DNA of 40,926 nucleotides from an uncultured Mycobacteriaceae bacterium (GTDB lineage: Bacteria > Actinomycetota > Actinomycetes > Mycobacteriales > Mycobacteriaceae), in assembly GCA_902826815.1 (NCBI GenBank), contig CADEGF010000056.1, positions 7,230-48,155 of the forward strand, given 5' to 3'. Positions within the stretch are counted from its first letter, which is position 1. The number at the start of each line of letters is the position of its first letter. Shown piece after piece: positions 6,633-27,534 of the stretch. The notes beneath the pieces are model-generated. The model saw only the letters and a list, made by a program, of their open reading frames with translations, was not told the origin of the DNA and did not search any database. The translations under genes were made by a program, and so were the position numbers.

Positions 6633-6753
6633 CGTTGATGGACGCCAGCAGTGGCGACATGTGCTCGTCGGTCCGCGATCGTGGCAGCTGCAACGTTGCA
6701 CGCGAGAACCCGACGACCACAATGCGAACCGTCCGCCCGATCGGAGACTTCAG

Positions 6754-7491
6754 ATGACTGCTGACCCGGAAGTGCTCAACATCGTACCGGTGACGACAGC
6801 ACGACCCGATGCTCGTGTGGACAAGATCCTGGCCAGGGCCGGGATGTTCCGCGGGATCGAAGCCTGTGCTGTTCCCGCGTTGAAAGCGCAACTGCAGCCC
6901 GTCAAGTTCCCACGCGCGCATACCGTGTTCGCCGAGGGGGACCCTGGCGATCGGCTGTTCATCGTCATTTCGGGCAAGGTCAAGATCGGCCGCCGATCAC
7001 CGGACGGCCGCGAGAAGCTGCTCACCATCATGGGGCCGTCGGACATGTTCGGCGAATTGTCGATCTTCGACCCGGGACCGCGAACGTCAAGCGCGACCAC
7101 CATCACCGAAGTGCGTGCCGTCTCGATGGACCGCGACGTGCTGCGCGCCTGGATCGCCGACCGGCCCGAAATCGCCGAAAAACTGCTGCGGATACTGGCC
7201 CGCCGGCTCCGTCGCACCAACAACAACTTCGCCGACTTGATCTTCACCGACGTGCCGGGCCGTTTGGCCAAGCAGCTGCTGCAACTGGCGCAATGCTTCG
7301 GCACCCGGGAGCTCGATGCGCTGCGCGTCGACCACGACCTCACCCAAGAGGAGATCGCGCAGCTGGTCGGTGCGTCAACGGAGACGGTCAACAAGGCGCT
7401 CGCCGATTTCGCCCACCGTGGCTGGATTCGGTTGCAACCCAAGAGCGTCCTGATCTACGACTGCGAACGCCTCACACGGCGCGCGCGCTGA
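6754..7491 (+). CDS. Crp/Fnr-family cAMP-type transcription regulator, divergent paralog
   Basis: ATG at 6754 is chosen for GGAG 7 bases upstream; a frame open to 6661 lacks one. The 245-residue protein has a cNMP-binding domain ([19 protein letters not shown]; phosphate cassette [18 protein letters not shown], with the Arg-Thr-Ser that holds cAMP) and a winged HTH ([14 protein letters not shown]). It is very close to mycobacterial Crp (Rv3676 type) but has about 25 extra residues at the start. In the recognition helix it reads [10 protein letters not shown] where I recall ASRETVNKAL: the Arg equal to E. coli CRP Arg180, which touches DNA, is Thr (codon 7378-7380). Ligand binding looks intact, DNA choice probably altered. 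Some mycobacteria carry a second Crp; this could be it. It lies 59 bases upstream of the tailoring cluster in the same direction, so it may control or join it. Confidence 0.85.
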
Positions 7492-7550
7492 CAGTTTCTG
7501 AAGCCGGATGAACCACGCACCGTTCTACATCGTCTTTCTAGTAACAACCC

Positions 7551-8417
7551 GTGACGACGGAGTCATGGCGCAAAGATCCAGCAATCGTCGCGGGAGCAAG
7601 TCTGTCTAAATCGTCTGCAGGTGCGTTGTCCGCCGCTCCACCGCTGGTGCTACTGCATCCGTTGGGGTCGACGGGCGCGATGTCATGGGCCCCACTCGCC
7701 GAATCGCTTCGGGGTGCGGGCTATCGCGTCGCGGCTCCAGATCTGCCAGGGCACGGGACCGCCCGCGACACCCCGTTCACGTGGGAGAGCGCAAAGGCGA
7801 CGGTTCGTGCGGCAACCGAGCGGTTCGCGCCGGAGAAGCCGGTCCTTATCGGCCATTCCCTCGGGGCGGCGACCGCGATTTACTCCGCACAGCGCGACCC
7901 GACCAGCTTTGCCGGTCTGCTGCTCAGCGGTGCGGGAGCCTGTTGGAACGACCGGTACGTCAGGTGGGGGCTGACGGTGGCGGCGGCCGTCGGAGCTCTC
8001 GCGGCAGCCGTCGGCCGTCGCGAATTACTCGTTCATGCCGCAGGCGTACGCGGCCCTCAAATCGTCAGTGCCGCCCGCACCGCAGATGTCGGGCCGATCC
8101 AATTATGGTGCGCCGCAAGACAGTTGACGCGATTCGATGTACGCGGCACACCCCCGCCACCGATACCGTGCGCTGTCATCGTGCTCACCGATGACCGGCG
8201 GATGCCGCCGGGGCTCCAGCGGGCACTCGCGAGGTACTTGAGCTGTCCGCACGTGGACGTCGCCGCGGATCACGACGGGCCGGTGCGCCAGACCGCCCGG
8301 TTCTACGACGGCGTGCAAACCGCGCTCGCGCTGCTAAGCGGTGGCGACAAGATCGGTGCCGTATTGCCTCAATCGGTGGCTATCGTCAGCCAAAAGGGAG
8401 GGAACGATCCCCTATGA
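7551..8417 (+). CDS. alpha/beta hydrolase
   Basis: The 288-residue product has the alpha/beta hydrolase layout: oxyanion region LLHPLGSTGAMSW (HPLGS in place of the usual HGxxG), nucleophile Ser in GHSLGAA, an Asp in VIVLTDDRRMP and a late His in VAADHDGPV that complete a triad. Its job could be hydrolysis of an ester, thioester or lactone; the substrate is unknown. GTG at 7551 is the only early start in frame and has no clear ribosome site, so the message may be leaderless. The stop overlaps the next ATG (ATGA at 8414), which ties it to the flavin monooxygenase as first gene of the cluster. Confidence 0.8.
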   Translation: MTTESWRKDPAIVAGASLSKSSAGALSAAPPLVLLHPLGSTGAMSWAPLAESLRGAGYRVAAPDLPGHGTARDTPFTWESAKATVRAATERFAPEKPVLIGHSLGAATAIYSAQRDPTSFAGLLLSGAGACWNDRYVRWGLTVAAAVGALAAAVGRRELLVHAAGVRGPQIVSAARTADVGPIQLWCAARQLTRFDVRGTPPPPIPCAVIVLTDDRRMPPGLQRALARYLSCPHVDVAADHDGPVRQTARFYDGVQTALALLSGGDKIGAVLPQSVAIVSQKGGNDPL

Positions 8418-9616
8418 CAACGCAATTCCAAGACAACCGCGACGCGGTAGTCATCGGGGCGGGCCCCTCCGGTCTCGCCATCGCACGCGAGCTCGAGCAT
8501 AAGCACGGCGTCGACACACTTGTCGTCGACCGAGCAACGGCGCCCGCCATCTCGTGGCGCACCCGCTACGACAACTTCCGCCTGAACACCACCGGATTTT
8601 TGTCACATCTTCCGGGGCAGCGGATCCCGTTGACCGCAGGCCGCTGGCCAACGCGTGAGGACATGGTCCGTTACTTCGACGATTACGTGCGGTGCCAGAA
8701 CATCACACTCGAGCTTGGCTGTGATGTCAACGGGGTCGTCCCCGCCGCAGGCGGCTGGCGGGTCGACACATCGTCAGGGGAAATCCGAACCCGGGCAATC
8801 GTTCTCGCCACCGGCAACTACCGCACACCCACCATCCCTCCGTGGCCGGGCCTGAGTCAGTTCACCGGCGAGGTCGTGCACTCCGGCAACTTCAGAAACG
8901 CTTGGCCCTTCCGCGACCGCGACGTCCTCGTTGTCGGTGCGGGTAACTCGGCGGCTGACATCGCCGTCCAGCTCGCCAACAACGGCGCGCGGCGGATCTG
9001 GCTCGCGGTCCGCACCCCGCCGCATCTTGTGCGGCGGGCAATCGGACCGCTGCCGTCGGATGTGCTCCTCGAGCTTTTCGCCTGGGCGCCTGCGGGCGCG
9101 GTTGATCCGATAATCGGGCTGTACGAACGGCTGATATGGGGCGACTTGTCGGCATACGGCTTCGATCGACCGCCGGCGGGGCTGAAGGCGACGGTAGAAC
9201 GGACGGGCCGCATCCCCACCCTCGCCGGCGAGCTCATTGCCGCCGTGCGGGCAGGTCGCGTCGAGGTCGTCCCGTCTGTGGAGGCCGTCGAACACGAACG
9301 TGTGGTCCTCGCCGACGGCAGCCGCATACCGCCGACGGTGATCATCGCCGCCACCGGGTTCAGCATGGATCTCGACGGTCTGGTCGGCCACCTCGGCGTA
9401 CTAGACGAACGCGGCAAGCTAGGCGGCGGATTCGCCTCACACATCGGCGATGGAATGTTCGCGATCGGCTACGGCATTCCGCCGAATGGCCCACTGCGAG
9501 CAATCCGCCGCGCCGCCTCGCCGCTGGCCCGTGAGATCGCCGCCTACCTGGCGCCAGCGCTACCGATTCACGTTTCGCAGCAGGCCACGCCCAACAGCAG
9601 GCTGCCAGCTATGTGA
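8414..9616 (+). CDS. CzcO/YUCCA-type NAD(P)H flavin monooxygenase
   Basis: The 400-residue enzyme has an N-terminal FAD fingerprint (VVIGAGPSGLAIARELE), the flavin-monooxygenase motif FTGEVVHSGNF, a second nucleotide fingerprint for NADPH (VVGAGNSAADIAVQLA) and the late ATGF motif. These are marks of class B single-component monooxygenases, which make a flavin hydroperoxide to add one oxygen to a soft or carbonyl centre. Many relatives are annotated as trk-type or CzcO without proven function. It overlaps the hydrolase gene by ATGA and is followed by a 200-base gap with a possible promoter, then by the oxidase. Substrate unknown. Confidence 0.85.
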   Translation: MTTQFQDNRDAVVIGAGPSGLAIARELEHKHGVDTLVVDRATAPAISWRTRYDNFRLNTTGFLSHLPGQRIPLTAGRWPTREDMVRYFDDYVRCQNITLELGCDVNGVVPAAGGWRVDTSSGEIRTRAIVLATGNYRTPTIPPWPGLSQFTGEVVHSGNFRNAWPFRDRDVLVVGAGNSAADIAVQLANNGARRIWLAVRTPPHLVRRAIGPLPSDVLLELFAWAPAGAVDPIIGLYERLIWGDLSAYGFDRPPAGLKATVERTGRIPTLAGELIAAVRAGRVEVVPSVEAVEHERVVLADGSRIPPTVIIAATGFSMDLDGLVGHLGVLDERGKLGGGFASHIGDGMFAIGYGIPPNGPLRAIRRAASPLAREIAAYLAPALPIHVSQQATPNSRLPAM

Positions 9617-9817
9617 GACCGATCCGCAAGGCGAACCACGTCGATGGCAATCGGCGAAATCGCCGTAGTATCAGTATGTTTCGGCCACAGTCGAGATGGG
9701 CTTTTGCTGCTGGTGACCAATCTGTGACGTCGACCACTCCTGGTGAACGAATACCACGCAAGAGCCGTTTCACCTGATAGCCGGTGAATCAGCCGGATCT
9801 CGAGAAGGAAATTAGCA
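9617..9817 (+). promoter_or_regulatory. intergenic region with a partial Crp-like site
   Basis: No gene of its own is seen in these 201 bases. TGTGACGTCGACCACT at 9723-9738 has a perfect left half of the mycobacterial Crp consensus (TGTGA-N6-TCACA) and 3 of 5 matches in the right half. With a Crp paralog 2.2 kb upstream it could be a regulated promoter for the oxidase operon, but single half sites are common by chance. Confidence 0.3.
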
Positions 9818-9889
9818 ATGGGCGCAAAGCATCTGGTCGCCAGGGTGGCATCGCCGAGAGCGCCATTGGGTGAAATCAAGGGGACGTGA
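9818..9889 (+). CDS. 23-residue leader ORF coupled to the oxidase gene
   Basis: ATG at 9818 follows AAGGA with about 9 bases spacing, the best ribosome site of the cluster. The frame ends in TGA at 9887-9889, whose last base is the first base of the oxidase ATG (TGATG), the classic layout for re-initiation. The peptide begins MGAKHLVARV and ends EIKGT; no family is recognised. It probably sets translation of the downstream operon rather than acting as a protein. Confidence 0.5.
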   Translation: MGAKHLVARVASPRAPLGEIKGT

Positions 9890-11229
9890 TGGTTCTGCTT
9901 TCCGTCGAAAAGTACTACTTCCGGGGCGCACCGGAGTACGAGACCGCCCGCCGGGCGACGGTATGGAATGGCCTTCTACCCGACCGCTTTCCCGACGTGA
10001 TCGTGCAAGCTCACGACACCGACGACGTGGTCGCAGCAATCCGCTATGCGCGAGCCAACGGCCACAAAGTCGGCGTACGTTCGGGTGGGCATAGCTGGGC
10101 GGCCAATCACCTGCGCGACGGCGGATTGCTGCTCGACGTCAGCCGCCTCGACCACTGCACCGTCGACGCATCTCGGATGACTGCGGACGTCGGGCCTGGC
10201 AAGATCGCCAGCGATTTTGCGATCGAACTCGACTCGCAAGGGCTTTTCTTTCCTTCGGGCCATTGCGAAGGCATTCGGCTCGGCGGCTTCCTGTTGCAGG
10301 GCGGATACGGCTGGAACAGCCCGGCGATTGGCATGGCATGTGAGAGCGTGATTGGGCTGGAGGTCGTCACCGCCGACGGCGAACAGATCTACTGCGACCC
10401 CGAGAACCACGCCGACCTGTATTGGGCCGCTCGCGGCTCGGGCACGGGCTTCTTCGGTGTGGTCACCGCATTCAAACTGCGGATTCACCGGCGCCCGGCG
10501 GTGGTGGGCACCTGCCTGTACATGTACCCAATCGAGCTCGTCGACGAGGTGTACACCTGGGGACGCGAGATCAGTTCGCAGGTCGACGACCGGGTCGAGC
10601 TGCAGATCCTCGCCACCCGCGCTAACCCGGCAGCCGGCATCGACCACCCCACCATCACGATCGCCTCGCCGGTCTTCGCCGAATCAGAAGAGGAGGCGGC
10701 GAAAGCCCTTGGCGTGCTTGGCACCTGCCCGGTCGCCGACAAGGCGATGATCAACGTTCCCTACCTGCCGACCACCCTGGCGAACTGGTACACCGCCGTG
10801 ATGACCAACTACCCGGAAGGGCACCGCTACATCGCCGACAACATGTTCACGTCGGCCTCGGCGGCGGAGCTACTGCCGGGCATCCGCAACATCATCGAAA
10901 CGATGCCGCCGCACCCCTCGCACTTCATCTTCACGGGTTGGAAGGCGTCGCCGGAACGCGTGGACAAGGTGTACGGCCTGGAGGACGAGATCTATATGGC
11001 GCTGTACACCGTCTGGCAGGACCCCGCCGACGACGCGCGTTACCGCGACTGGGCCGCCTCCAACATGGCGGCGATGTCGCATCTGGCAACCGGCATCGCG
11101 CTCGCCGACGAGAATCTCGGCAGGCGCCAGGCGCGTTTCATCACCGAACCGAACGTGGCACGCCTCGACAAGGTGCGCTCGAGTTACGATCCGGACGGCC
11201 GCTTCCACAGTTGGATGGACTGTCCATGA
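9889..11229 (+). CDS. berberine-bridge-type FAD oxidoreductase (PCMH/VAO fold)
   Basis: The 446-residue protein has the PCMH-type FAD domain: VRSGGHSW with the His that takes covalent FAD (about residue 70), then FPSGHCEGIRLGG, where the Cys lines up with the second attachment Cys of bicovalent relatives (TCPTVGVGG type), and GSGTGFFGVVTAF. The end has a BBE-like motif (RSSYDPDGRFHSW; the usual is YDPxNxF). Such enzymes oxidise alcohols, sugars or amines, or close rings, with oxygen as acceptor. ATG 9889 is preferred to GTG 9886 because AAGGGG ends 5 bases before it and the leader ORF stop overlaps it. There is no signal peptide, so it is cytoplasmic. The stop overlaps the next gene (ATGA at 11226). 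Confidence 0.85.
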   Translation: MVLLSVEKYYFRGAPEYETARRATVWNGLLPDRFPDVIVQAHDTDDVVAAIRYARANGHKVGVRSGGHSWAANHLRDGGLLLDVSRLDHCTVDASRMTADVGPGKIASDFAIELDSQGLFFPSGHCEGIRLGGFLLQGGYGWNSPAIGMACESVIGLEVVTADGEQIYCDPENHADLYWAARGSGTGFFGVVTAFKLRIHRRPAVVGTCLYMYPIELVDEVYTWGREISSQVDDRVELQILATRANPAAGIDHPTITIASPVFAESEEEAAKALGVLGTCPVADKAMINVPYLPTTLANWYTAVMTNYPEGHRYIADNMFTSASAAELLPGIRNIIETMPPHPSHFIFTGWKASPERVDKVYGLEDEIYMALYTVWQDPADDARYRDWAASNMAAMSHLATGIALADENLGRRQARFITEPNVARLDKVRSSYDPDGRFHSWMDCP

Positions 11230-12464
11230 AACTGACTGCGCAGCAACGTAATTCGGATAAGTGCTCCGCAAAAAAGAGGCGAGACTCCGACTCGCTTCGG
11301 GTCCTCGTGATCGGCGCTGGGGTCGGCGGTATCTCCATTGCCCGGGGACTGCTGCGAGACGGGCACGACGTCACCGTGTTCGAACAACGACCAGATAACC
11401 GACCCGGTGGCGGTGCAGTGACCATCTGGTCCAACGGGGCGACGGTACTGGACCAGCTGGGCGTCGACATGGGCGGCGCAGGTCAACTGCTGTCCACCGT
11501 GCGGCTTTCCACATCGACGGGGCGCCCGCTGGTCAACATCGACCTGACCACGATTGTGGACCGGCTGGGCGGCACCGTGCGGATGGTCCCGCGTCGGGTC
11601 CTGCTCGAGCGCCTGTCGGAGGGCTTCCCGGTCGAACGCATCCGATTCAACTCCCGTGCGATCGGCGCCGTCAGTACCAGAGACGGGGTACGGATCGAGT
11701 TCGAAGACGGTAGCTCGGCAGAAGGCGATCTGTTGATCGGCGCCGACGGACTGCACTCGGTCGTTCGAGACATTTCCGGTGCGCCGCCTGCGAAGCCGAC
11801 CGGGTGGTGCAGCTGGCAGGGGCTGATCACGCTCCCCCACATCGCCGAAAAGCAGGTCGCACTGCAGATCATCGGAGAGCACGGAAACGTCGGGCTCTGG
11901 CCAGCGGGTGGCCGCGAACTGCAGTGGTGGTTCGATCGTCGGTGGTCACCCGACTTCGTCAGGCCGGAACACCCGATCGACATGCTCCGCTCCAACTTCA
12001 GCGGATGGTCCGACTCGGTCGATCGAGTACTCGCGATGCTGACCGACGACGACCTGGCGGACTCGCCGTTCCCGCACTTTCGGCATCCGATTCCGCGCAC
12101 GCCGCGCAACGGGGCGATGACATTGCTCGGCGACGCCGCACATGCGATGCCGTCCATCCTCGCGCAGGGCACGAATCAGGCTCTGCTCGACACGATGGTG
12201 TTGTGGAAAGCACTTTCGGATTTCCAGAAGGGCACGACAGGTGATCTGTCGGACGCGCTGCGCTGGTACGAGAAGACGAGGCGGCCCAAGGTTTCGGCCG
12301 TGTCGTGGGTGACATCGCGGCAGATGTCGCAGAGCGAGTCAGTGCTGAAGCCAGCGGCCATGCTCTCGGACTCGTTTGGCACATGGGCAATGACTACGTT
12401 TCTGAGTTCGCTCAGCCACCGCCGGATTGCCGCGGACGTAGACCGAGAGTTGTCGAACCGATGA
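11226..12464 (+). CDS. aromatic-type FAD monooxygenase (PHBH fold)
   Basis: The start is ATG 11226, overlapping the oxidase stop; the long upstream frame is a shadow. The 412-residue enzyme has, after about 25 residues, the FAD fingerprint VLVIGAGVGGISIARGL, then the DG motif GADGLHSVVR and the GD motif LLGDAAHAMPSILAQGTNQAL. These are marks of group A hydroxylases, which hydroxylate aromatic or polyketide rings using NAD(P)H and oxygen. The stop overlaps the methyltransferase start (ATGA at 12461), so oxidase, hydroxylase and methyltransferase are translationally coupled and probably act in one pathway: a hydroxyl added here could be methylated next. Confidence 0.87.
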   Translation: MKLTAQQRNSDKCSAKKRRDSDSLRVLVIGAGVGGISIARGLLRDGHDVTVFEQRPDNRPGGGAVTIWSNGATVLDQLGVDMGGAGQLLSTVRLSTSTGRPLVNIDLTTIVDRLGGTVRMVPRRVLLERLSEGFPVERIRFNSRAIGAVSTRDGVRIEFEDGSSAEGDLLIGADGLHSVVRDISGAPPAKPTGWCSWQGLITLPHIAEKQVALQIIGEHGNVGLWPAGGRELQWWFDRRWSPDFVRPEHPIDMLRSNFSGWSDSVDRVLAMLTDDDLADSPFPHFRHPIPRTPRNGAMTLLGDAAHAMPSILAQGTNQALLDTMVLWKALSDFQKGTTGDLSDALRWYEKTRRPKVSAVSWVTSRQMSQSESVLKPAAMLSDSFGTWAMTTFLSSLSHRRIAADVDRELSNR

Positions 12465-13543
12465 ATCATGTGCCACCCGCCAAGCTGGCCCGCGTCATCG
12501 AGTGGACGCGCCACCATCTGTATCGGCTCAATCAACGGCTGATGCCCGCGCCGGCAGCGCTTTTCGAGATCATCCTCGCCGGCTGGACGTCGCAGGCGAT
12601 CACGGTGGCGGCCCAACTCGGCGTCGCCGATGCCCTCGCCGACGGCCCATTGTCGATCGACGAGTTGGCGGCCCGGGTGGACGCCGACGCGGATGCACTG
12701 CGCCGGCTGCTGCGGGCATTGATCGGTCGCGGCATATTCCGGCAGCGGCGTGACGGCCGGTATGAGCTGAACTCCCTCGCCGACACTCTGCGGTCCGACG
12801 CCGCAGTGTCAATGACTTCCGCGGCACGGTTCTACGGTTCGCAGGAACAGCGCGAACGCTGGACCCTGCTGGTGGATTCCGTGCGCACCGGGGACTCAGT
12901 CGTCGCGGCATTGCGCGGCAAGGAGAGCTTCGACTACTTCGCCGAGAAGCCTGAGCTTGCCCAACTCTTCAACCAGACCATGTCGAGCATTTCGGCGCTG
13001 ACCGACGCAACCGTTGTCGCCGGATACGACTTCAGCGTCTACCCGACCATCATCGACGTCGGCGGCGGGCATGGCACACTGCTGGCCGCCATGCTGGCGT
13101 CCGCGCCGACGTCGCGGGGTGTCCTGTACGACCTGCCGTCGGTCGTCGCGGACGCCCCCGACCTGTTGCGGAAGCAGGAGGTCGCCGACCGCGTTCGTAT
13201 CGCCGAGGGATCGTTTTTTGACAGCGTTCCGCCCAACGGTGACGCGTACATCCTCAAGAACATCCTTCACGACTGGCCGGACGACAAGGCGGTTCAGATC
13301 CTGCGTAGCGTCCGCGCGGCAACCGGCCCCCGAGCCACGGTGCTGCTTGTGGAGCTCGTCATCCCCCGTCACAACCGTGACTTCCCGGGAAAGTGGGCGG
13401 ATCTGGAGATGATGCTGAATCTGGGGGCGCGTGAACGCACCGCGGCCGAGTACCGAGAACTGCTGAGCGAAGCTGGATTCCGGATGACGAGGGTGGTCCC
13501 AACCGCTTCACCGCTCAGCGTGGTCGAGGCCACGCCCGCGTAA
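12461..13543 (+). CDS. SAM-dependent O-methyltransferase (small-molecule type)
   Basis: The 360-residue protein has an N-terminal winged-helix dimerisation domain (about residues 25-105) and a class I methyltransferase domain with DVGGGHGTLLAAML for SAM, and LKNILHDWPDD, where the His is the usual general base of Methyltransf_2 enzymes (plant COMT / hydroxyneurosporene methyltransferase type). It should methylate a phenolic or enolic oxygen. ATG 12461 overlaps the previous stop. It is the last gene of the cluster; 23 bases separate its stop from that of the convergent MmpL gene, and no hairpin is seen between them. Confidence 0.87.
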   Translation: MNHVPPAKLARVIEWTRHHLYRLNQRLMPAPAALFEIILAGWTSQAITVAAQLGVADALADGPLSIDELAARVDADADALRRLLRALIGRGIFRQRRDGRYELNSLADTLRSDAAVSMTSAARFYGSQEQRERWTLLVDSVRTGDSVVAALRGKESFDYFAEKPELAQLFNQTMSSISALTDATVVAGYDFSVYPTIIDVGGGHGTLLAAMLASAPTSRGVLYDLPSVVADAPDLLRKQEVADRVRIAEGSFFDSVPPNGDAYILKNILHDWPDDKAVQILRSVRAATGPRATVLLVELVIPRHNRDFPGKWADLEMMLNLGARERTAAEYRELLSEAGFRMTRVVPTASPLSVVEATPA

Positions 13544-13566: not shown

Positions 13567-15840
13567 TTAGGCCACGGGCACCGTGGTTCGTGAGGTCAAC
13601 TTCTCGTCCTCATTCTCACCCTCGCGCAGGCCGATGCGGTCGTGCAGCCACACCAACGGTTTCGGTGCCCACCAGTTCCACTTACCCAGCACGTGCATGG
13701 AAGCGGGCAGCAGCACCATCCGCACCAGCGTGGCGTCGACCAGTACGGCCAGCGTCAGGCCCAGCCCGAGCATCCGCATGAACTGCACGTGGGCGCCAAA
13801 CAGGGCGGCGAACGATATCGACATCACCAGGGCTGCGGCGGTGATCACCCGACCGGTGCGGGCCAACCCCATTGCGACGCTCTCATCGTTGTCGGCACGG
13901 GTTCGCCGCGATGCCAGCCAGTACTCGCGAATCCGCGACAGCAGGAACACCTCATAGTCCATCGACAGGCCAAAAGCGATGCAGAACAACAACACCGGAG
14001 TGTTGGCGGGCAGGGTTCCGGTGGACGTCGTTCCGAGCGCACCCAGGTGCCCATCCTGGAAAATCCACACCAGCGCACCGAACGCGGCGGTGAGCGAGAG
14101 CACGTTGAGTACGAGTGCCTTGAGCGGCAGCACGACGCTGCCCGTCAGCAGGAACAACAGTCCGAACGTGATCACCGCGATCAGCCCAAGCACCGCGGGC
14201 AACCGTGACGTGATGGCGTCGACGCTGTCGCGGTTGGTCTGCGCGATGCCGGTCAGCTCGACCGGGCGGCCTGCCGGTCCGGGTACCGAATGCAGCCGGT
14301 CGAGTTGGGTCTGCGAGGAATCGGAGAACAACGGGGCTGCGCTGTCGACGGTGAGGAAGGCGCTGCCCTGCGTCAGCCCGGTGGCCGCCGAGGGCGGCCC
14401 GACCCGGACTCCTGCGACGAACGTGCCCGACGGCGCCGACACCGCCGAAACATCCGGGACGCGGGACAATTCGGCGGCGTAGCGCTCCAGATCCGCCGGT
14501 GTGAGGCCCTTCGCGTCGGGGATCACCGCGGTGACCGCGGTGGCGGCGGTGTCGCCGAAGTCATTGCGCAACTGGTCGCCGACCTGATGCGCCGACACCG
14601 ATGTCGGCAGTACTCGGTCATCGGGGAATCCCCACTTCACCCCGAGGAAAGGCGCGCCGAGCACCAGCAGCAGCGCCACAACGGCCAGGCCGAGAGGCAG
14701 GGCGCGGCGCATCACGAACGTCGTCGACCGATACCAGAACTGTGCCTCGACCGGCCGGGGTGCAGGGTCGGGGCGGTGCAGCAGCCGCCGTACAAGCCGT
14801 CGCACATCCAGAGCGTTCAGCCGGTCGCCCAGCAGGACGATGGCCGCAGGCGCGACGACCACCGCCGCCAGCGCCGCGAACGCGACGGTGGCGACACCGG
14901 CGTAGGCGAACGACTTCAAAACGTGCATCGGGAACAGGGCCAGCGCGGCCATCGACAGCGCCACCGTCGTCGCCGAGACCAGCACCGTGCGCCCCGCCGT
15001 CGTCATCGTGCGGACCAGGGCGATGTGCGGGTCGGCGCCGCCGGCCAGTTCGTCGCGATAGCGGCTGATGATCAGCAACGTGTAGTCGATCGCCAGGGCG
15101 AGGCCCATCGCGGTGCTGAGGTTGGGCGCGAGGTTCGACACGTCGGTGCCGAAGCTGATGAAGCGCAGGACCGCCATCGACCCCAGGATCGCCATCAGCC
15201 CGACCGCAACGGGCAGTGCGGCCGCCAGTAGGCCACCGAATACCCAGACCAGCACGAGGAAGCTCAACGGAATGGCGATCGACTCCATGAGCAGAAGATC
15301 GCGCTGCAGCTCGGAGTTGATCTGCGCGTTCACCATCACGACCCCACCCGACCGGACCATGACACCGGTCGCCCCGACGGGATGATCGCGCGCCACCTCC
15401 TCGGACAGCGTCTGGGCGGAATCCTGCGCGACGCTCTCTCCGCCGCTGATACCCGCGACAACCAATCCGACCTTGCCGTCCGTGCTGACAAGATCTTTCG
15501 CCGCCGCCGGTTGGGCGCTCCACGCCGACGTCACCTCGGCGACGTTCGGTGCTCGCCTCAGCTGATCCACGATGCTCAACCCCACCGCGCGGGCCGCCGG
15601 GCCGGTGGCGCTGTCCGGCGCGGTGACCGTGATCAGCATCTGCATATCGCCCTGGTGGAACTTGTCGGTCAGCAGTTGCGTCGCCCTTGCCGACTCCGAA
15701 CTTGGGTCCTGGAATCCGCTCGAGGACAGGCTTTTGGCGACCGGGACACCAAAGACCCCCGCGGCCAGCATGACCAACACGGCCGCCGCGATGACCCGCC
15801 GCGGCGCTGCGATCGCCAGCAATGCGATTCGTTGCGGCAC
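13567..15840 (-). CDS. MmpL-family RND transporter
   Basis: GTG at 15840 is chosen because AAGGAGGA, a near-perfect ribosome site, ends 6 bases before it; the frame runs up to 15882 without one. The 757-residue protein has the MmpL plan: one helix, a large outer loop, five helices with the first Asp-Tyr pair (LALAIDYTLLIISRYRDE), a second loop and a second bundle with the other pair (GLSMDYEVFLLSRIRE). The pairs carry the proton path. It lacks the long C-terminal tail of MmpL3. MmpL proteins export lipids, siderophores or drugs; its place facing the tailoring cluster suggests export of the product, but it is on the other strand with its own promoter, so that link is inference. Confidence 0.9.
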   Translation of the reverse strand: MPQRIALLAIAAPRRVIAAAVLVMLAAGVFGVPVAKSLSSSGFQDPSSESARATQLLTDKFHQGDMQMLITVTAPDSATGPAARAVGLSIVDQLRRAPNVAEVTSAWSAQPAAAKDLVSTDGKVGLVVAGISGGESVAQDSAQTLSEEVARDHPVGATGVMVRSGGVVMVNAQINSELQRDLLLMESIAIPLSFLVLVWVFGGLLAAALPVAVGLMAILGSMAVLRFISFGTDVSNLAPNLSTAMGLALAIDYTLLIISRYRDELAGGADPHIALVRTMTTAGRTVLVSATTVALSMAALALFPMHVLKSFAYAGVATVAFAALAAVVVAPAAIVLLGDRLNALDVRRLVRRLLHRPDPAPRPVEAQFWYRSTTFVMRRALPLGLAVVALLLVLGAPFLGVKWGFPDDRVLPTSVSAHQVGDQLRNDFGDTAATAVTAVIPDAKGLTPADLERYAAELSRVPDVSAVSAPSGTFVAGVRVGPPSAATGLTQGSAFLTVDSAAPLFSDSSQTQLDRLHSVPGPAGRPVELTGIAQTNRDSVDAITSRLPAVLGLIAVITFGLLFLLTGSVVLPLKALVLNVLSLTAAFGALVWIFQDGHLGALGTTSTGTLPANTPVLLFCIAFGLSMDYEVFLLSRIREYWLASRRTRADNDESVAMGLARTGRVITAAALVMSISFAALFGAHVQFMRMLGLGLTLAVLVDATLVRMVLLPASMHVLGKWNWWAPKPLVWLHDRIGLREGENEDEKLTSRTTVPVA

Positions 15841-16001
15841 GTCGCGTCCTCCTTGTCTCCGCGGACGCAAGATCAGCGGCAACGTATTTCACGTCAATAA
15901 TGAAAACGAGCGACGGCCTCGCAGGGTTCATCCCGCGCGCACTACACCGACGTCGTCGAGGAATCACCGACGGTCAACCGTGTCCGGGTTAGTGACGAGG
16001 G

Positions 16002-16797: not shown

Positions 16798-19700
16798 CTA
16801 CAACAGCCCGACCAGCTGCAGGTCGGTGATGTACTTGACGATGATCGGTGCCGTGACATGTGGGATGTCTTTGTCCGGACCGATTTTCGCCTCCTGTACC
16901 GCTGCGTTGAACCGGTCGGTGGGTGCCATCGACCCGAGGATCGGCTTCTCTGGATGCTGGTAATTGTGCAGCAACGGCAGGAGTGAGGCCTGGCGTTGCT
17001 TGTCCGGCAGGGCCCGCAAGGCGGTGTCGAACCGTTGCAGCCAGTTGCCGTAGCCGCGGATTCGCTGGATCGGGTGGCCGTCGTGGACAAGCCAATCCAC
17101 ATACTCGTCGAGCCCGATTCCGTCGTCATAGGGGTTCATCACGTGGTAGGTCGCGAACCCGTCCACTACCTGCGCGCCGAGGGCGGAGATCGCTTCGGCG
17201 ATGAAGCCGACCGGCAGCCCGTCGTAATGCGCACGTTGTCGGTGACCGTCGGCGTCAAGGTCGTAAAACGAGTCAGGCGCGATTCCAGTGGCCACCAGGC
17301 TCAGCATCAACCGCGTGAACATGTCCGGCACGTTGAGCTGACCGGCGTAGGTGGTATCAGCCAGGATCATGTCGCAACGGAAGATCGCGACCGGCAGACC
17401 GCACAACTCATTCGCCTCGCGCAGCAGTACCTCGCCGGCCCACTTGCTGTTGCCGTAGCCGTTAGCGTAATTGTCGTTGACGCTGCGGGTCGGGCTGATG
17501 ATCCGGATGTCGGCGTCCTCCGTGAAAGCCGACGGTTTGATCTGGTCACCGACACCTATGGTTGACACGTAGGTATATGGCTTCTGTTTGGTGGTCAGCG
17601 CGATGCGGATCAGCTCGGCGGTGCCGACCGCGTTGGGGCCGAACAACTCGCTGTACGGCAGCACATGGTTGACCAGGGCGGCGGGATCGACGATCAGGTC
17701 GACAGTGTCGGCCAGCCGCTGCCAGGTCTGTTGGCCCAGTCCGAGATTCGTCTCACCCTTGTCACCGGCGAGCACCTCCAGATGATCGGCCGCCAGTTTG
17801 CGGTAATGGCGCAGCAATTCGGGATCACCGCTGTCGAAGACGGCGTCCAGCCGCTGGCGGGCCGCGGTGTCGTCCTTGGCGCGCACCAGGCAGATCAGCC
17901 TGCCGTCGACGAGTTCCATCCGCTCCAGCCATTCCAAGGCCAGGTAGCGGCCGAGGAATCCGGTCGCACCGGTCAGCAGGACGGTGCGCACTTCGGCGCT
18001 TGGCGGGGCCAGGGTCGGGGCGGCGGCCAGCGTCTTGGCGTCGATGAACTTGTCGAGCGTGAGGTCGCGGGCGTACACCTCGGTGGCGTCCCGACCGTGG
18101 ACCGTGGCGAACGTGGGCCGCTTCGATCCCGGCGTGCGCTCGGTTTCGATGAAGGCGGCGATCGACTGCAGATCGCTGGCCGGGCTGACGATCACCCCGA
18201 CCGGCACGTCGATACTGAAGATCTCGTGCAGCAGGTTGCCGAATGTCAACGCCGACAAAGAGTCTCCGCCCAGGTCAGTGAAGTGGGCGTCGGGCGCCAG
18301 ATCGCCGGTCGAAACGCTCAGCAGCACGCCGGCGGCACGGGTAACGGTATCCAGCACTGGCCCGTTGGCACCGTTCTGACGCAGTGCCCGCAGCTCGTTC
18401 GTTTGACTGTCGGCCAGCTCGGCGTAGAGCTGCTCCAGGCGGTCGCCGTAGTGCGCCTTCAGTTTTGGCCTCGCGAGCTTGCGGATGCCGGTGAGTAGGC
18501 CGTTCTCCAGCGTGAACGGGGTTGCCTCGACAAGGTAGTCGCGGGGCAACTCGTAGGACTGCAGACCCGCATCCCTTGCGATGTCTTGTAAGGACTCACT
18601 GATCGCCTGCTTGAGCGACTCGACGTCCCCGCCAGTTCGGTTCAACGCGTCCTCGGTGGGCACGACGACGGCGAGCACGTAGGAGCGTGCGCTGTTGCCG
18701 TAGACGTAGATCTGGCGGATCAACGGGCTGTCACCGAACACCGCCTCAAGCTTCGACACCGTGACGAACTCACCCTGCGAAAGCTTGAGCACGTTGTTGC
18801 GCCGATCCAGGTAGACGAGCTGATCGGGACCGACCTCGGCGACCACGTCGCCGGTCCGGTAGTAGCCGTCGGGATCGAACACCTCCGCGGTGACCTCGGG
18901 TCGCTTGTAATAGCCGGGGAACAGGTCCTCCGTCTTGACGAGCAGCTCGCCCCGCGGGTAGGGCCGGTCGGTGTGGAAGTAACCTAGGTCGGGCACATCG
19001 ACCAGCTTGTAGTCGATCACCGACGGGCGTCGCACCTGGCCGTCGATGTAGACGATGCCCGCCTCTGTCGAACCGTAAGCCTCAACGAGATGGAGGTCGA
19101 GCAGGGATTCGACGAACTCATTATTCTCGGCCGAGATCGGCGCTGAGCCCGTCATCGCCGAGACGAACCGTCCGCCGAGCAGGTTCTGCGCCTGGTCCGC
19201 CATGACCTCGGCTTCGACTGCGGCGCGATCGGCGCCGTCGACCGATCGTCGGTCCACTTCGCTCTGGAACTCGCTGAAAAGCATGTCCCAAATCCGCGGC
19301 ACGAAGTTCAGTTCAGTGGGCCGCACCAGCGCGAGATCTTCGAACAACGTCGAAAGATCGCTCCTGGCAGTGAAATACACGGTGCCCCCCTGGCCCAGCG
19401 TTCCGTAGAGGATGCCGCGCCCCATCACGTGGCTCATCGGCATGAAGCTGAGCGTGATCGACGGCTCGACGCTCGACTCGTCCCAGTTCCACCGCGACCT
19501 GCGCCAGAAGTTGGCGACCAACCGTTCCGGGTACATGGCACCCTTCGGCGCGCCTGTGCTGCCCGAGGTATAGATGAGCAACCTCAACGGGTCGTCATCG
19601 TCGTCGGACACGAACTCCGGTGCGGCAGGCAGCGACTCGCCGCGTTCGAGCAACTCGGCCAGAGACTCCACCACCACCGGGCTGCCCGCCTCCGCCAGCC

Positions 19701-20331
19701 GCGTCAGTGCGGTATCGAAGGCCTCACGCTGCTCGTCGACCTCGGGGCGGTAGTCGAAGACCACCAGCCGCGCAGGCTCGTGACCAGTCAGCACCAGCTC
19801 GACGGCGTCGCCGAGATCGTCGACGCTGGACGCGAATACGCGCGGTTCGGTTTCGGTGACGATGGGTCGTAACTGACTGACCGGCGCGCTGGTTTGAAGC
19901 GGCACGCACACCGCGCCCAGCACTCCCAATGCCATGTCGATCGTCGCGTAGTCCACGCTTGTGAAGCCCAGCACACAGACCCGATCGCCATGCCGCAGTG
20001 CCTGGGCTCCGGTGCCGGTCAAGCCGCGCACAACCGCGTCAACGCGCTCCCACAACTTTCCGTACGTCACAGTCTCGAACCACGGCAGAAGCTCAAGGGT
20101 TGTGCGACCGGTCTCCGGATTTGTCACGAGGTCGACAGCACGTTCTCCAACCGCGGGCCGCTCCGCGTATGCCTGCATCACAGTGCGCACGATCCGCGAC
20201 AGCCGGAGTCCGGGTTGCTCGATCGCCGCGGTGAGTGCCTCGATCGGCTTGGCGGCGGCGAACTGGGAGTCGGTGGCGTACAGGTCGGCGACACGACTCG
20301 CGAGCCGCTCTTCGCGGGGATCGGTGGACAT
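16798..20331 (-). CDS. car: carboxylic acid reductase (CAR)
   Basis: The 1177-residue enzyme has the three CAR parts: an adenylation domain ([30 protein letters not shown], about residues 1-640), a carrier domain with the phosphopantetheine Ser in LGGDSLSAL (about 690), and a thioester reductase domain ([21 protein letters not shown], with YVSTIGVG and the YGNSKW catalytic Tyr-Lys). It turns carboxylic acids into aldehydes with ATP and NADPH after a PPTase adds the arm; the product leaves the enzyme. It is close to the CARs I know from M. smegmatis in length and ending (LLGLL-like). ATG 20331 is preferred over an upstream in-frame TTG at 20361. No PPTase gene is in the window. It may serve fatty or aromatic acids; the tailoring cluster lies 3.3 kb away on the other strand. 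Confidence 0.95.
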
Positions 20332-20520
20332 AAGATCACTAGTTCTTTCTGAGTGGCTCAATTAGTTTGTGCAGCAACAACTCCACGGTAGGCTCGTCCG
20401 ACGGAATCGACAGCCAGCCTCGATGCTCCGTTGACGGCACAGTGGGCATTTGAAGCTGGCAGGTATAGAAAGATTGCCGTTAGCGGTACCTGTTCGGGTG
20501 TAGGGAGGCCGGATCTGGAA
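20332..20520 (-). promoter_or_regulatory. region upstream of car with paired repeats
   Basis: This 189-base gap carries the probable car promoter. It holds GCTGGCAGGTATAG (20455-20468), near-identical to 4308-4321 on the minus strand, and GTTAGCGGTACC (20480-20491). CAGGTA at 20460-20465 and TACCTG at 20487-20492 form an inverted repeat with a 21-base gap. No ORF is convincing. Confidence 0.4.
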
Positions 20521-26231: not shown

Positions 26232-26933
26232 CTATCGCATCGTCGTGACGGCCAATGGCTCGTGTGTGCCACTCACTCGGATGTCGACGGTGCGGATTCT
26301 GGCGGTCGGAATCGCCGTCGAGGCTGCGAGTCCACTCGCATGGTCGCTGGCCGGACTCCATGTCCCGACCGCCGACTCGGCGCCCTCGACCGTGGTCACC
26401 ACGATGTCGTAAGCGGGGGCCGCCTTGGCCCAGTCCTTGACGTATTCGCACGTCCAGTCCAGCCGGGTACCCCACTTCTTCTCGGTCACCGCCAGGGCGG
26501 CGTTGATGCCGCCCTTGAGCGTCGGTTGCATGGCCTGCAGCGCGATTCCCTCCGCCTTCTCCTGGTGCGGGAATGCGGTGGCCCCGACCGCGCCTGCCCC
26601 GATCGCGATCGCGGCAGCCGTCGCGAACCCCGCGACGAGCATGCTGCGCCGAGATCGGCGCTGCCTCCTGGCAGCCGCGAATGCCAACGAAGGCACCAGA
26701 TCCAACGCCAGCACGTCGGCCTTCGAGTCGCCTGCTTGTTCGGTCAGCGCGATGGCCTCATCGCAGGTGAGCATGTTGAGGATGCCGGGTAGGCCGGCAA
26801 GTTCGGTGAGCGCAGCGGCGCGGTCGGGGTTTTCGGCGAGATAGGTCTCATAGAGATGCCGGTCATCCCGACTGAGAGCGCCGAGAACATAGGCGGCGTC
26901 CCAGTCGGCTCTTTCGTCGACGTCGTCCATCAT
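26232..26933 (-). CDS. membrane anti-sigma factor (RskA-like)
   Basis: ATG 26933 overlaps the sigma gene stop (ATGA) and has GGAGAGGGG upstream; the longer upstream frame is a shadow. The 233-residue protein has an N-terminal anti-sigma domain (YVLGALSRDDRHLYETYLAENP; family pattern ALGxLxxxERxxxExHL) without the His-x3-Cys-x2-Cys zinc motif, one membrane helix (about residues 97-120) and an outer RskA-type domain (ALQAMQPTLKGGINAALAVTE to the end). It should hold the sigma factor at the membrane until a signal leads to its cleavage or release. Confidence 0.8.
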   Translation of the reverse strand: MMDDVDERADWDAAYVLGALSRDDRHLYETYLAENPDRAAALTELAGLPGILNMLTCDEAIALTEQAGDSKADVLALDLVPSLAFAAARRQRRSRRSMLVAGFATAAAIAIGAGAVGATAFPHQEKAEGIALQAMQPTLKGGINAALAVTEKKWGTRLDWTCEYVKDWAKAAPAYDIVVTTVEGAESAVGTWSPASDHASGLAASTAIPTARIRTVDIRVSGTHEPLAVTTMR

Positions 26934-27442
26934 CGGACGACACCCCTCTCCTGCAATGCAATTCGTAGTGCCCGCAGCGCGTAGTGCAGCCGGGACTTGA
27001 CCGTGCCCTCTGGAATCTGTTCGTGCGCAGCGATGTCGGCGACGGTTTGGCCCAGGTAGTAGGCGTGAACCACAGCGACCCGATGGTGGCGCGACAGCGA
27101 CATCAGGGCGTCGGACATGATCCACTTGTCGAACGCGGGACCGATTTCATCCGGCGACGACCGCTCTGGAACGGAGTCGGTCTTCAATTCACGTGCGTAC
27201 CTTGCACTTCGGCGATCGTCGATCACCTGGTTACGGGCGACGGTGAACAACCAGGCCCTGACCCCGTCCGTGCGCTGCTGCAGGAGCTCCGGCTTCCGCC
27301 ACAGCCGCAGCAGCGATTCCTGCACGACGTCCTCGGCGAATGCCATGTCCCCAGAGGTGAGGCGGAGGACGTAGCGCAACAACTCCTGTCTGTGCGCATC
27401 GTGGATCGCTCGCATTAGTGCCGCCCGATCCTGATCGGTCAT
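26930..27442 (-). CDS. ECF-type RNA polymerase sigma factor
   Basis: Region 2 (DMAFAEDVVQESLLRLWRKP) and region 4 (HRVAVVHAYYLGQTVADIAA, IPEGTVKSRLHYALRALR) are both clear, with no extra domain. ATG 27442 gives 170 residues, usual for the family, with GGAG about 10 bases upstream; the frame is open to a TTG at 27523. It is followed with overlap by its anti-sigma gene. No promoter sequence was identified, so autoregulation is expected from the family, not seen. It may belong near SigL/SigM-type factors; I cannot place it more exactly. Confidence 0.85.
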   Translation of the reverse strand: MTDQDRAALMRAIHDAHRQELLRYVLRLTSGDMAFAEDVVQESLLRLWRKPELLQQRTDGVRAWLFTVARNQVIDDRRSARYARELKTDSVPERSSPDEIGPAFDKWIMSDALMSLSRHHRVAVVHAYYLGQTVADIAAHEQIPEGTVKSRLHYALRALRIALQERGVVR

Positions 27443-27534
27443 GTCGCTGATGCTCCGCGCGGGTCCTCCGCGTTTGCTGTGAACTTCCTCGTGAATACGA
27501 GACAGAACGCGGAGATCGTTCAACGACGCGTGAA

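Follow-up and report, generated by a model that had tools for sequence, protein, structure and literature searches.

The window examined here is a 40,926-nucleotide stretch from an uncultured Mycobacteriaceae bacterium (assembly GCA_902826815.1, contig CADEGF010000056.1, positions 7,230 to 48,155), whose genome comprises 6.87 Mb in 141 contigs. It holds a run of five genes encoding an alpha/beta hydrolase, a flavin monooxygenase (FMO), an FAD-linked oxidase, an aromatic hydroxylase and an O-methyltransferase (OMT), faced by an MmpL exporter (Table 1). A preliminary description had presented the five as an orphan set of enzymes for finishing aromatic natural products, joined by ATGA overlaps in two groups. 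This layout can be read directly in the sequence: all five genes lie on the same strand at the positions given for them, the overlaps are at 8414, 11226 and 12461, and a 269-bp gap separates the hydrolase–FMO pair from the oxidase–hydroxylase–OMT group. Pfam and NCBIfam matches agree with the enzyme kinds that had been named, the best Pfam E values of the five proteins ranging from 2e-19 to 7e-48. As had also been remarked, no polyketide synthase, non-ribosomal peptide synthetase or terpene core is present among the 21 window frames scanned with Pfam, which represent part of the window genes.

Table 1. Genes and candidate promoters at and around the five-gene cluster (positions in the window).
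Feature	Position	Strand	Remarks
Crp-like gene	6661..7491		5' of hydrolase
Candidate promoter of hydrolase–FMO pair	7509..7536	+	TGAAC-N17-CGTCTT, 42 bp 5' of hydrolase start
Alpha/beta hydrolase	7551..8417	+	Abhydrolase_6 (Pfam)
FMO-like class B type flavin monooxygenase	8414..9616	+	FxGxxxHxxxF at aa 150
Candidate promoter of oxidase–hydroxylase–OMT operon	9744..9771	+	TGAAC-N17-CGTTTC, 142 bp 5' of annotated start
BBE/EncM-type FAD-linked oxidase	9886..11229	+	FAD_binding_4 (PF01565, 1.8e-30); second ATG at 9889
Class A aromatic hydroxylase	11226..12464	+	FAD_binding_3; near HpxO-type monooxygenase and tropone 2-monooxygenase
S-adenosylmethionine-dependent OMT	12461..13543	+	Methyltransf_2 with dimerisation domain
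MmpL (MmpL3-like) RND exporter	13567..15882	-	Faces operon; 23 bp stop to stop
Candidate promoter of MmpL	15903..15930	-	TGAAC-N17-CGTTTT, 48 bp 5' of annotated start
CAR	16798..20361	-	Beyond MmpL

The three flavoenzymes are distinct in kind. In the FMO, the conserved histidine motif lies between GxGxxG/A motifs at residues 15 and 175; FxGxxxHxxx(F/Y/W) between two Rossmann motifs is the mark of class B flavin monooxygenases (FMO and Baeyer-Villiger types), and the nearest solved protein is 4usq (1.1e-24). The oxidase is nearest to EncM (1.5e-39), and its His69 is kept in 17/17 aligned homologues and the Cys of its GHC motif in 15/17; we take these to be the flavin-linking residues, which suggests that FAD is bound covalently. 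The hydroxylase carries GxGxxG, DG and GD at residues 30, 174 and 302, the motifs of class A flavoprotein hydroxylases. Its nearest solved proteins are the flavoprotein monooxygenase 3rp8 (1.4e-36), presumably HpxO, and tropone 2-monooxygenase (1.4e-34), and HpxO is also its best NCBIfam model. Naming it as a Tet(X) or rifampin monooxygenase resistance enzyme was rejected because its scores fall far below the NCBIfam cut-offs. For the OMT, the nearest solved protein is AlpH (9.6e-91).

A search with the oxidase returned 33 loci, 29/33 named loci being Mycobacterium or Mycolicibacterium. The 26 with at least 72% identity, treated as close relatives, were compared over fetched stretches of at most 21.3 kb, some of them cut short where the contig stops. 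Several of the loci come from metagenome bins, a single bin contributing both L040 and L055 on two contigs. FMO accompanies the oxidase in 24/26 of these loci, OMT in 16/26 and hydroxylase in 15/26, and the four occur together within one fetched stretch in 14/26, which is not the picture of genes found singly in unrelated contexts. The hydrolase is present in 2/26 (L039 and L060) and does not belong to the conserved set. The same stretches contain a CqsB2-like cyclase and a thiamine diphosphate (ThDP) enzyme in 19/26 loci, and in 16/26 all four genes of a carbazole-type core, the other two encoding a KASIII-like enzyme and a HisC-like aminotransferase. This linkage bears out the view of the cluster as a natural-product toolkit and removes its orphan status.

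Oxidase homologues at 58–67% identity were rejected as the same gene, having, where their surroundings were seen, another neighbour (F28; L062–L064 and L124), and no association with the cyclase; three copies at 64–66% (in genomes G062, G086 and G108) are exceptions, sitting 5–7 kb from a cyclase. Two Streptomyces loci (L069 and L070) were set aside, with oxidase matches of only 29–30% and no core gene.

The core is also intact in the window's own genome, where contig C6 carries the cyclase (73% identical to the M. nebraskense copy), KASIII (77%), ThDP enzyme (73%) and aminotransferase contiguously, all four frames being open over their full length. Of the substrates proposed in the preliminary description, the evidence favours the one made by a core enzyme encoded elsewhere; the host or plant aromatic compound also proposed there found no support. 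The gene order at locus L083 is secY, adk, map, sigL, rslA, ThDP enzyme, cyclase, KASIII, aminotransferase and MarR. The sigma factor beside the core matches SigL in the PDB (6dv9, 5.4e-78), and the anti-sigma factor matches 3hug_B (1.1e-23), which we take to be RslA in the M. tuberculosis SigL–RslA complex (3hug); the MarR gene 3' of the core is assigned as Rv0737-type from position alone. Such a split recurs in two further genomes, G143 (M. stellerae) and G080 (M. barrassiae), where the core is at the sigL locus and the tailoring genes are on another contig.

The small cyclase has no Pfam match, and its sole PDB match is CqsB2 (6ipv, E 5e-51, for the M. nebraskense copy). The cyclases are 42–46% identical to CqsB2, and Y144, Y172, H206 and E209 are kept in 11/11 homologues checked; these residues and E105 are named as catalytic in CqsB2 (PMC7466098). 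In the published pathway, the carbazole core arises from tryptophan via an aminotransferase, a ThDP enzyme, a KASIII-like enzyme and CqsB2 (PMC7466098), and CqsB1, CqsB2, CqsB3 and CqsB7 of the carquinostatin (cqs) and neocarazostatin (nzs) clusters match our four core genes in type, CqsB2 by sequence too (PMC7466098). Those clusters also own an acyl carrier protein (ACP), a classical KASIII, a phytoene-synthase-like prenyltransferase, an IPP isomerase and, in nzs, a P450 (PMC7466098), none of which was found among the core-locus genes scanned, a scan that did not extend to the rest of the genome.

The nearest published cluster is chlCz, for chlocarbazomycin in Streptomyces tubbatahanensis, which likewise has a HisC-like aminotransferase, a ThDP enzyme, a KASIII and an SRPBCC carbazole synthase (PMC10100901). 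Its two FAD oxidoreductases (tabulated as 441 and 391) are like those of the window by type, not by sequence, and it too is split, with an O-methyltransferase (365), again likened by type and not by sequence, about 2.1 Mb away (PMC10100901). It differs in its clustered ACP, SDR enzymes and proposed halogenase, and the available part of the report makes no mention of SigL–RslA or MmpL (PMC10100901). Putative carbazole cores outside Streptomyces have been noted in Sorangium and Scytonema (PMC7466098). Carbazole clusters are known from Streptomyces, and a mycobacterial one is apparently unreported in the literature searched: the titles and abstract openings among the matches listed, with subscription journals mostly outside the search, held no report of one, and a literature search for a mycobacterial BBE/FMO/OMT cluster gave nothing relevant.

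To place the core in the genus, 148 evenly drawn Mycobacterium genomes were surveyed with E cut-offs set per search; the number of first-look candidates scored per genome was capped, so absences are not certain. The cyclase is present in 99/148, although G074, G088, G090 and G114 have no copies other than broken or partial ones, and there is one stop in a few others; G074 and G114, in which the gene is interrupted by stops, are 3.3-Mb genomes. The hydroxylase occurs in 49/148 genomes, and all 49 have the cyclase, compared with 50 of the 99 genomes that lack the hydroxylase (Fisher 1e-11). FMO and oxidase orthologues are accompanied by the cyclase in 13/13 genomes each, and OMTs of at least 67% identity in 22/22, counted among the 22 best matches, some OMT homologue being found at the search cut-off in 111/148. 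As controls, more distant homologues showed no association: FMO at 47–52% occurs with the cyclase in 8/13 genomes and oxidase at 58–67% in 40/60. The cyclase is found on the same contig at a distance of up to 30 kb for 16/22 OMT, 8/26 FMO, 12/79 oxidase and 15/51 hydroxylase matches. Among the 89 genomes with both the cyclase and a sigL match, the two are no more than 10 kb apart in 77; 22/99 cyclase genomes have no copy so placed, 10 of these 22 being without a sigL match at the cut-off, and 35 sigL-positive genomes have no cyclase. In a survey of the phylum the cyclase was found in 14/396 genomes, four of them outside Mycobacterium, and the 14–20 kb around these four copies gave no match to the tailoring enzymes, MmpL, sigL or MarR at E 1e-4.

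The two separated halves share a promoter-like site. We scanned for TGAAC and CGT, which we take to be SigL-like half-sites, 16–20 bases apart, and read the 17-base spacer and the ending off the matches; a literature search for a published SigL consensus found none. In the window the motif lies within 250 bp upstream of 3/29 genes examined, namely the hydrolase, the oxidase and MmpL, and on contig C6 TGAAC-N17-CGTnWY precedes both sigL and the ThDP gene that opens the core operon. These five 150-bp stretches hold five matches against 0.005 expected from the density of the motif across the genome, a comparison in which the stretches were picked after the matches were known. Across 31 loci (605 kb) the motif occurs 79 times, each other spacer from 10 to 24 yielding 1–12 matches; 70/79 matches lie on the strand of one of the system's genes, from 30 bp inside it to 300 bp upstream, and 9/79 elsewhere. 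The window genome has 84 matches, compared with 10 for a reversed-pattern control. Taken together, these sites suggest SigL control of the core, the tailoring genes and the exporter, and a stress-type promoter common to both halves and the exporter hints at a function for this poorly understood mycobacterial regulator.

The exporter that had been described as facing the cluster fits this pattern. MmpL lies near the cluster in 2/26 relatives, L039 and L060 (M. stellerae), the latter copy also having its own SigL-type promoter, and a 63%-identical MmpL is found near other carbazole-type cores in L119–L121. On these grounds MmpL would probably export the pathway product.

We therefore read the window genes, at a probability of roughly 0.7, as serving tailoring and export in a divided pathway to a carbazole-type aromatic alkaloid under SigL control. 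In the proposed scheme, the aminotransferase on contig C6 would convert tryptophan to indole-3-pyruvate, the ThDP enzyme would couple this to pyruvate, the KASIII-like enzyme would attach an acyl chain, and the CqsB2-like cyclase would close ring A to give a catechol or o-quinone carbazole. The EncM/BBE-type oxidase may then oxidise the core product and the class A hydroxylase hydroxylate it, with the FMO adding a further oxygenation, after which the OMT would cap a phenol by O-methylation and MmpL would export the finished compound. The zinc anti-sigma factor RslA would hold SigL until oxidised, whereupon core, tailoring genes and exporter could be switched on together; an oxidant is the likely trigger because oxidation of M. 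tuberculosis RslA lowers its affinity for SigL (PMC2877774).

Several points weigh against this reading. The core and the window genes sit on separate contigs, and were these adjoining, the distance would still be ~92 kb or more. The layout leaves no room for an ACP inside the core operon (open reading frames below 120 residues elsewhere were not examined). The orthologue identity cut-offs were chosen after the match lists had been viewed, related genomes are not independent, so that shared descent inflates the co-occurrence figures, and the 79 promoter matches likewise come from related loci. A second type of core locus is seen in L119, L120, L122 and L163, with an FMO homologue at 39–43% and, in L119 and L120, MmpL. 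The motif is absent from L163, and it is not found upstream of core or tailoring genes in L119, nor in L121; L120 and L122 were outside the scan. One relative, L038, has the oxidase without any partner. The hydrolase stands outside the conserved set, and the Crp-like and CAR genes, which do precede and follow the cluster as had been described, are unmatched in L039 and L060, the sole relatives with all five genes (the L039 stretch stops inside MmpL, so CAR could not appear there).

The core enzymes themselves depart from the known ones. E105 of CqsB2 is Asp in 11/11 cyclases checked, that of the window genome included. Relative to the catalytic Cys-His-Asn positions, which we take from FabH, the KASIII-like enzyme keeps Cys and Asn with Asn in place of His in 11/11 checked, and the same Cys-Asn-Asn occurs in the four genomes outside the genus. 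With the cyclase at only 42–46% identity, these replacements mean that the aryl or acyl substrate may differ. The same logic could thus serve another aryl-pyruvate (phenyl- or 4-hydroxyphenylpyruvate), giving a naphthalene-type or other o-quinone for the window enzymes to tailor; the HisC-like aminotransferase, whose best models show no substrate preference, and the ThDP enzyme, nearest among solved proteins to BbmA/CsmA and acetolactate synthases, would accommodate this. We consider it unlikely, since four of the five CqsB2 catalytic residues are kept in 11/11 cyclases checked and all four kinds of enzyme are found in carbazole clusters (PMC7466098, PMC10100901).

Less probable still is that SigL control is all that the window genes share with the core, their substrate being another redox-active or envelope compound. 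The separate contigs in the window genome, G143 and G080 would suit such an arrangement, as would the hydroxylase, near the cyclase in only 15 of its 51 copies; it is countered by the physical linkage in 19/26 oxidase-orthologue loci and by the hydroxylase, which in the sample was never seen without the cyclase. That the cluster degrades or detoxifies a quinone or an aromatic compound of host or plant origin is very improbable, for although FMO, class A hydroxylase, hydrolase and CAR families can all act in aromatic catabolism, the 21 window frames scanned hold no ring-cleavage gene, a BBE-type oxidase and an O-methyltransferase are present, and linkage, co-occurrence and promoters tie the window genes to a biosynthetic core.

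If the split carbazole-type pathway is real, the window would represent a layout whose tailoring genes and MmpL exporter, though remote from the core, retain the same promoter, and an aromatic alkaloid class unsuspected in mycobacteria would have its cyclase gene in two-thirds of the genomes surveyed. It would also provide a concrete biosynthetic target for the redox-sensing SigL–RslA switch of M. tuberculosis, whose targets in the literature are genes for the cell wall, polyketides and lipids (PMC2877774, PMC10449499, PMC13002591). In that species rv0737 is immediately downstream of sigL-rslA, whereas here the core sits between them and the MarR gene, and the MarR protein Rv0737 binds the sigL-rslA promoter (PMC13002591); SigL and RslA are relatives of the M. 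tuberculosis proteins by sequence, the MarR gene by position only. More tentatively, and with the odds somewhat against it, the genes lying between rslA and the Rv0737-type regulator could be a founding SigL target, encoding a Mycobacterium-wide, redox-triggered pathway whose exported product is a carbazole-type o-quinone or the methyl ether of one, and lineages that lack these genes, M. tuberculosis included, would keep an orphaned SigL–RslA–MarR switch. More generally, a common promoter can expose scattered parts of one pathway.

Some variation was seen around the core and its regulator. A carotenoid-oxygenase (RPE65-type) gene adjoins the core between two sigL matches in L048, L051, L052, L054, L056, L058 and L059, these matches being partial in L048 and L051. 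Two copies of the core set flank mmsB-fadE9-mmsA in L044, L045, L049, L050, L061 and L065, the first copy being partial in L049. SigL paralogues of 66–70% lie near the tailoring cluster in M. moriokaense and M. barrassiae or near a hydroxylase gene in G145 (L066:6645-7211, L043:7004-7579 and L125:7357-7842). In L066, an MmyB-like regulator gene lies 5' of FMO, and L043 has a homologue grouped with it by sequence clustering (F33).

The window itself encodes a second ECF sigma factor (26930-27523, minus strand), 53% identical to M. celatum SigL, with TGAAC-N18-CGTATT at its annotated start; the overlapping frame at 26232-27125 has no Pfam match. Directly 3' of the solitary oxidase gene of L038 lie CAR-like fragments (L038:11377-11716).

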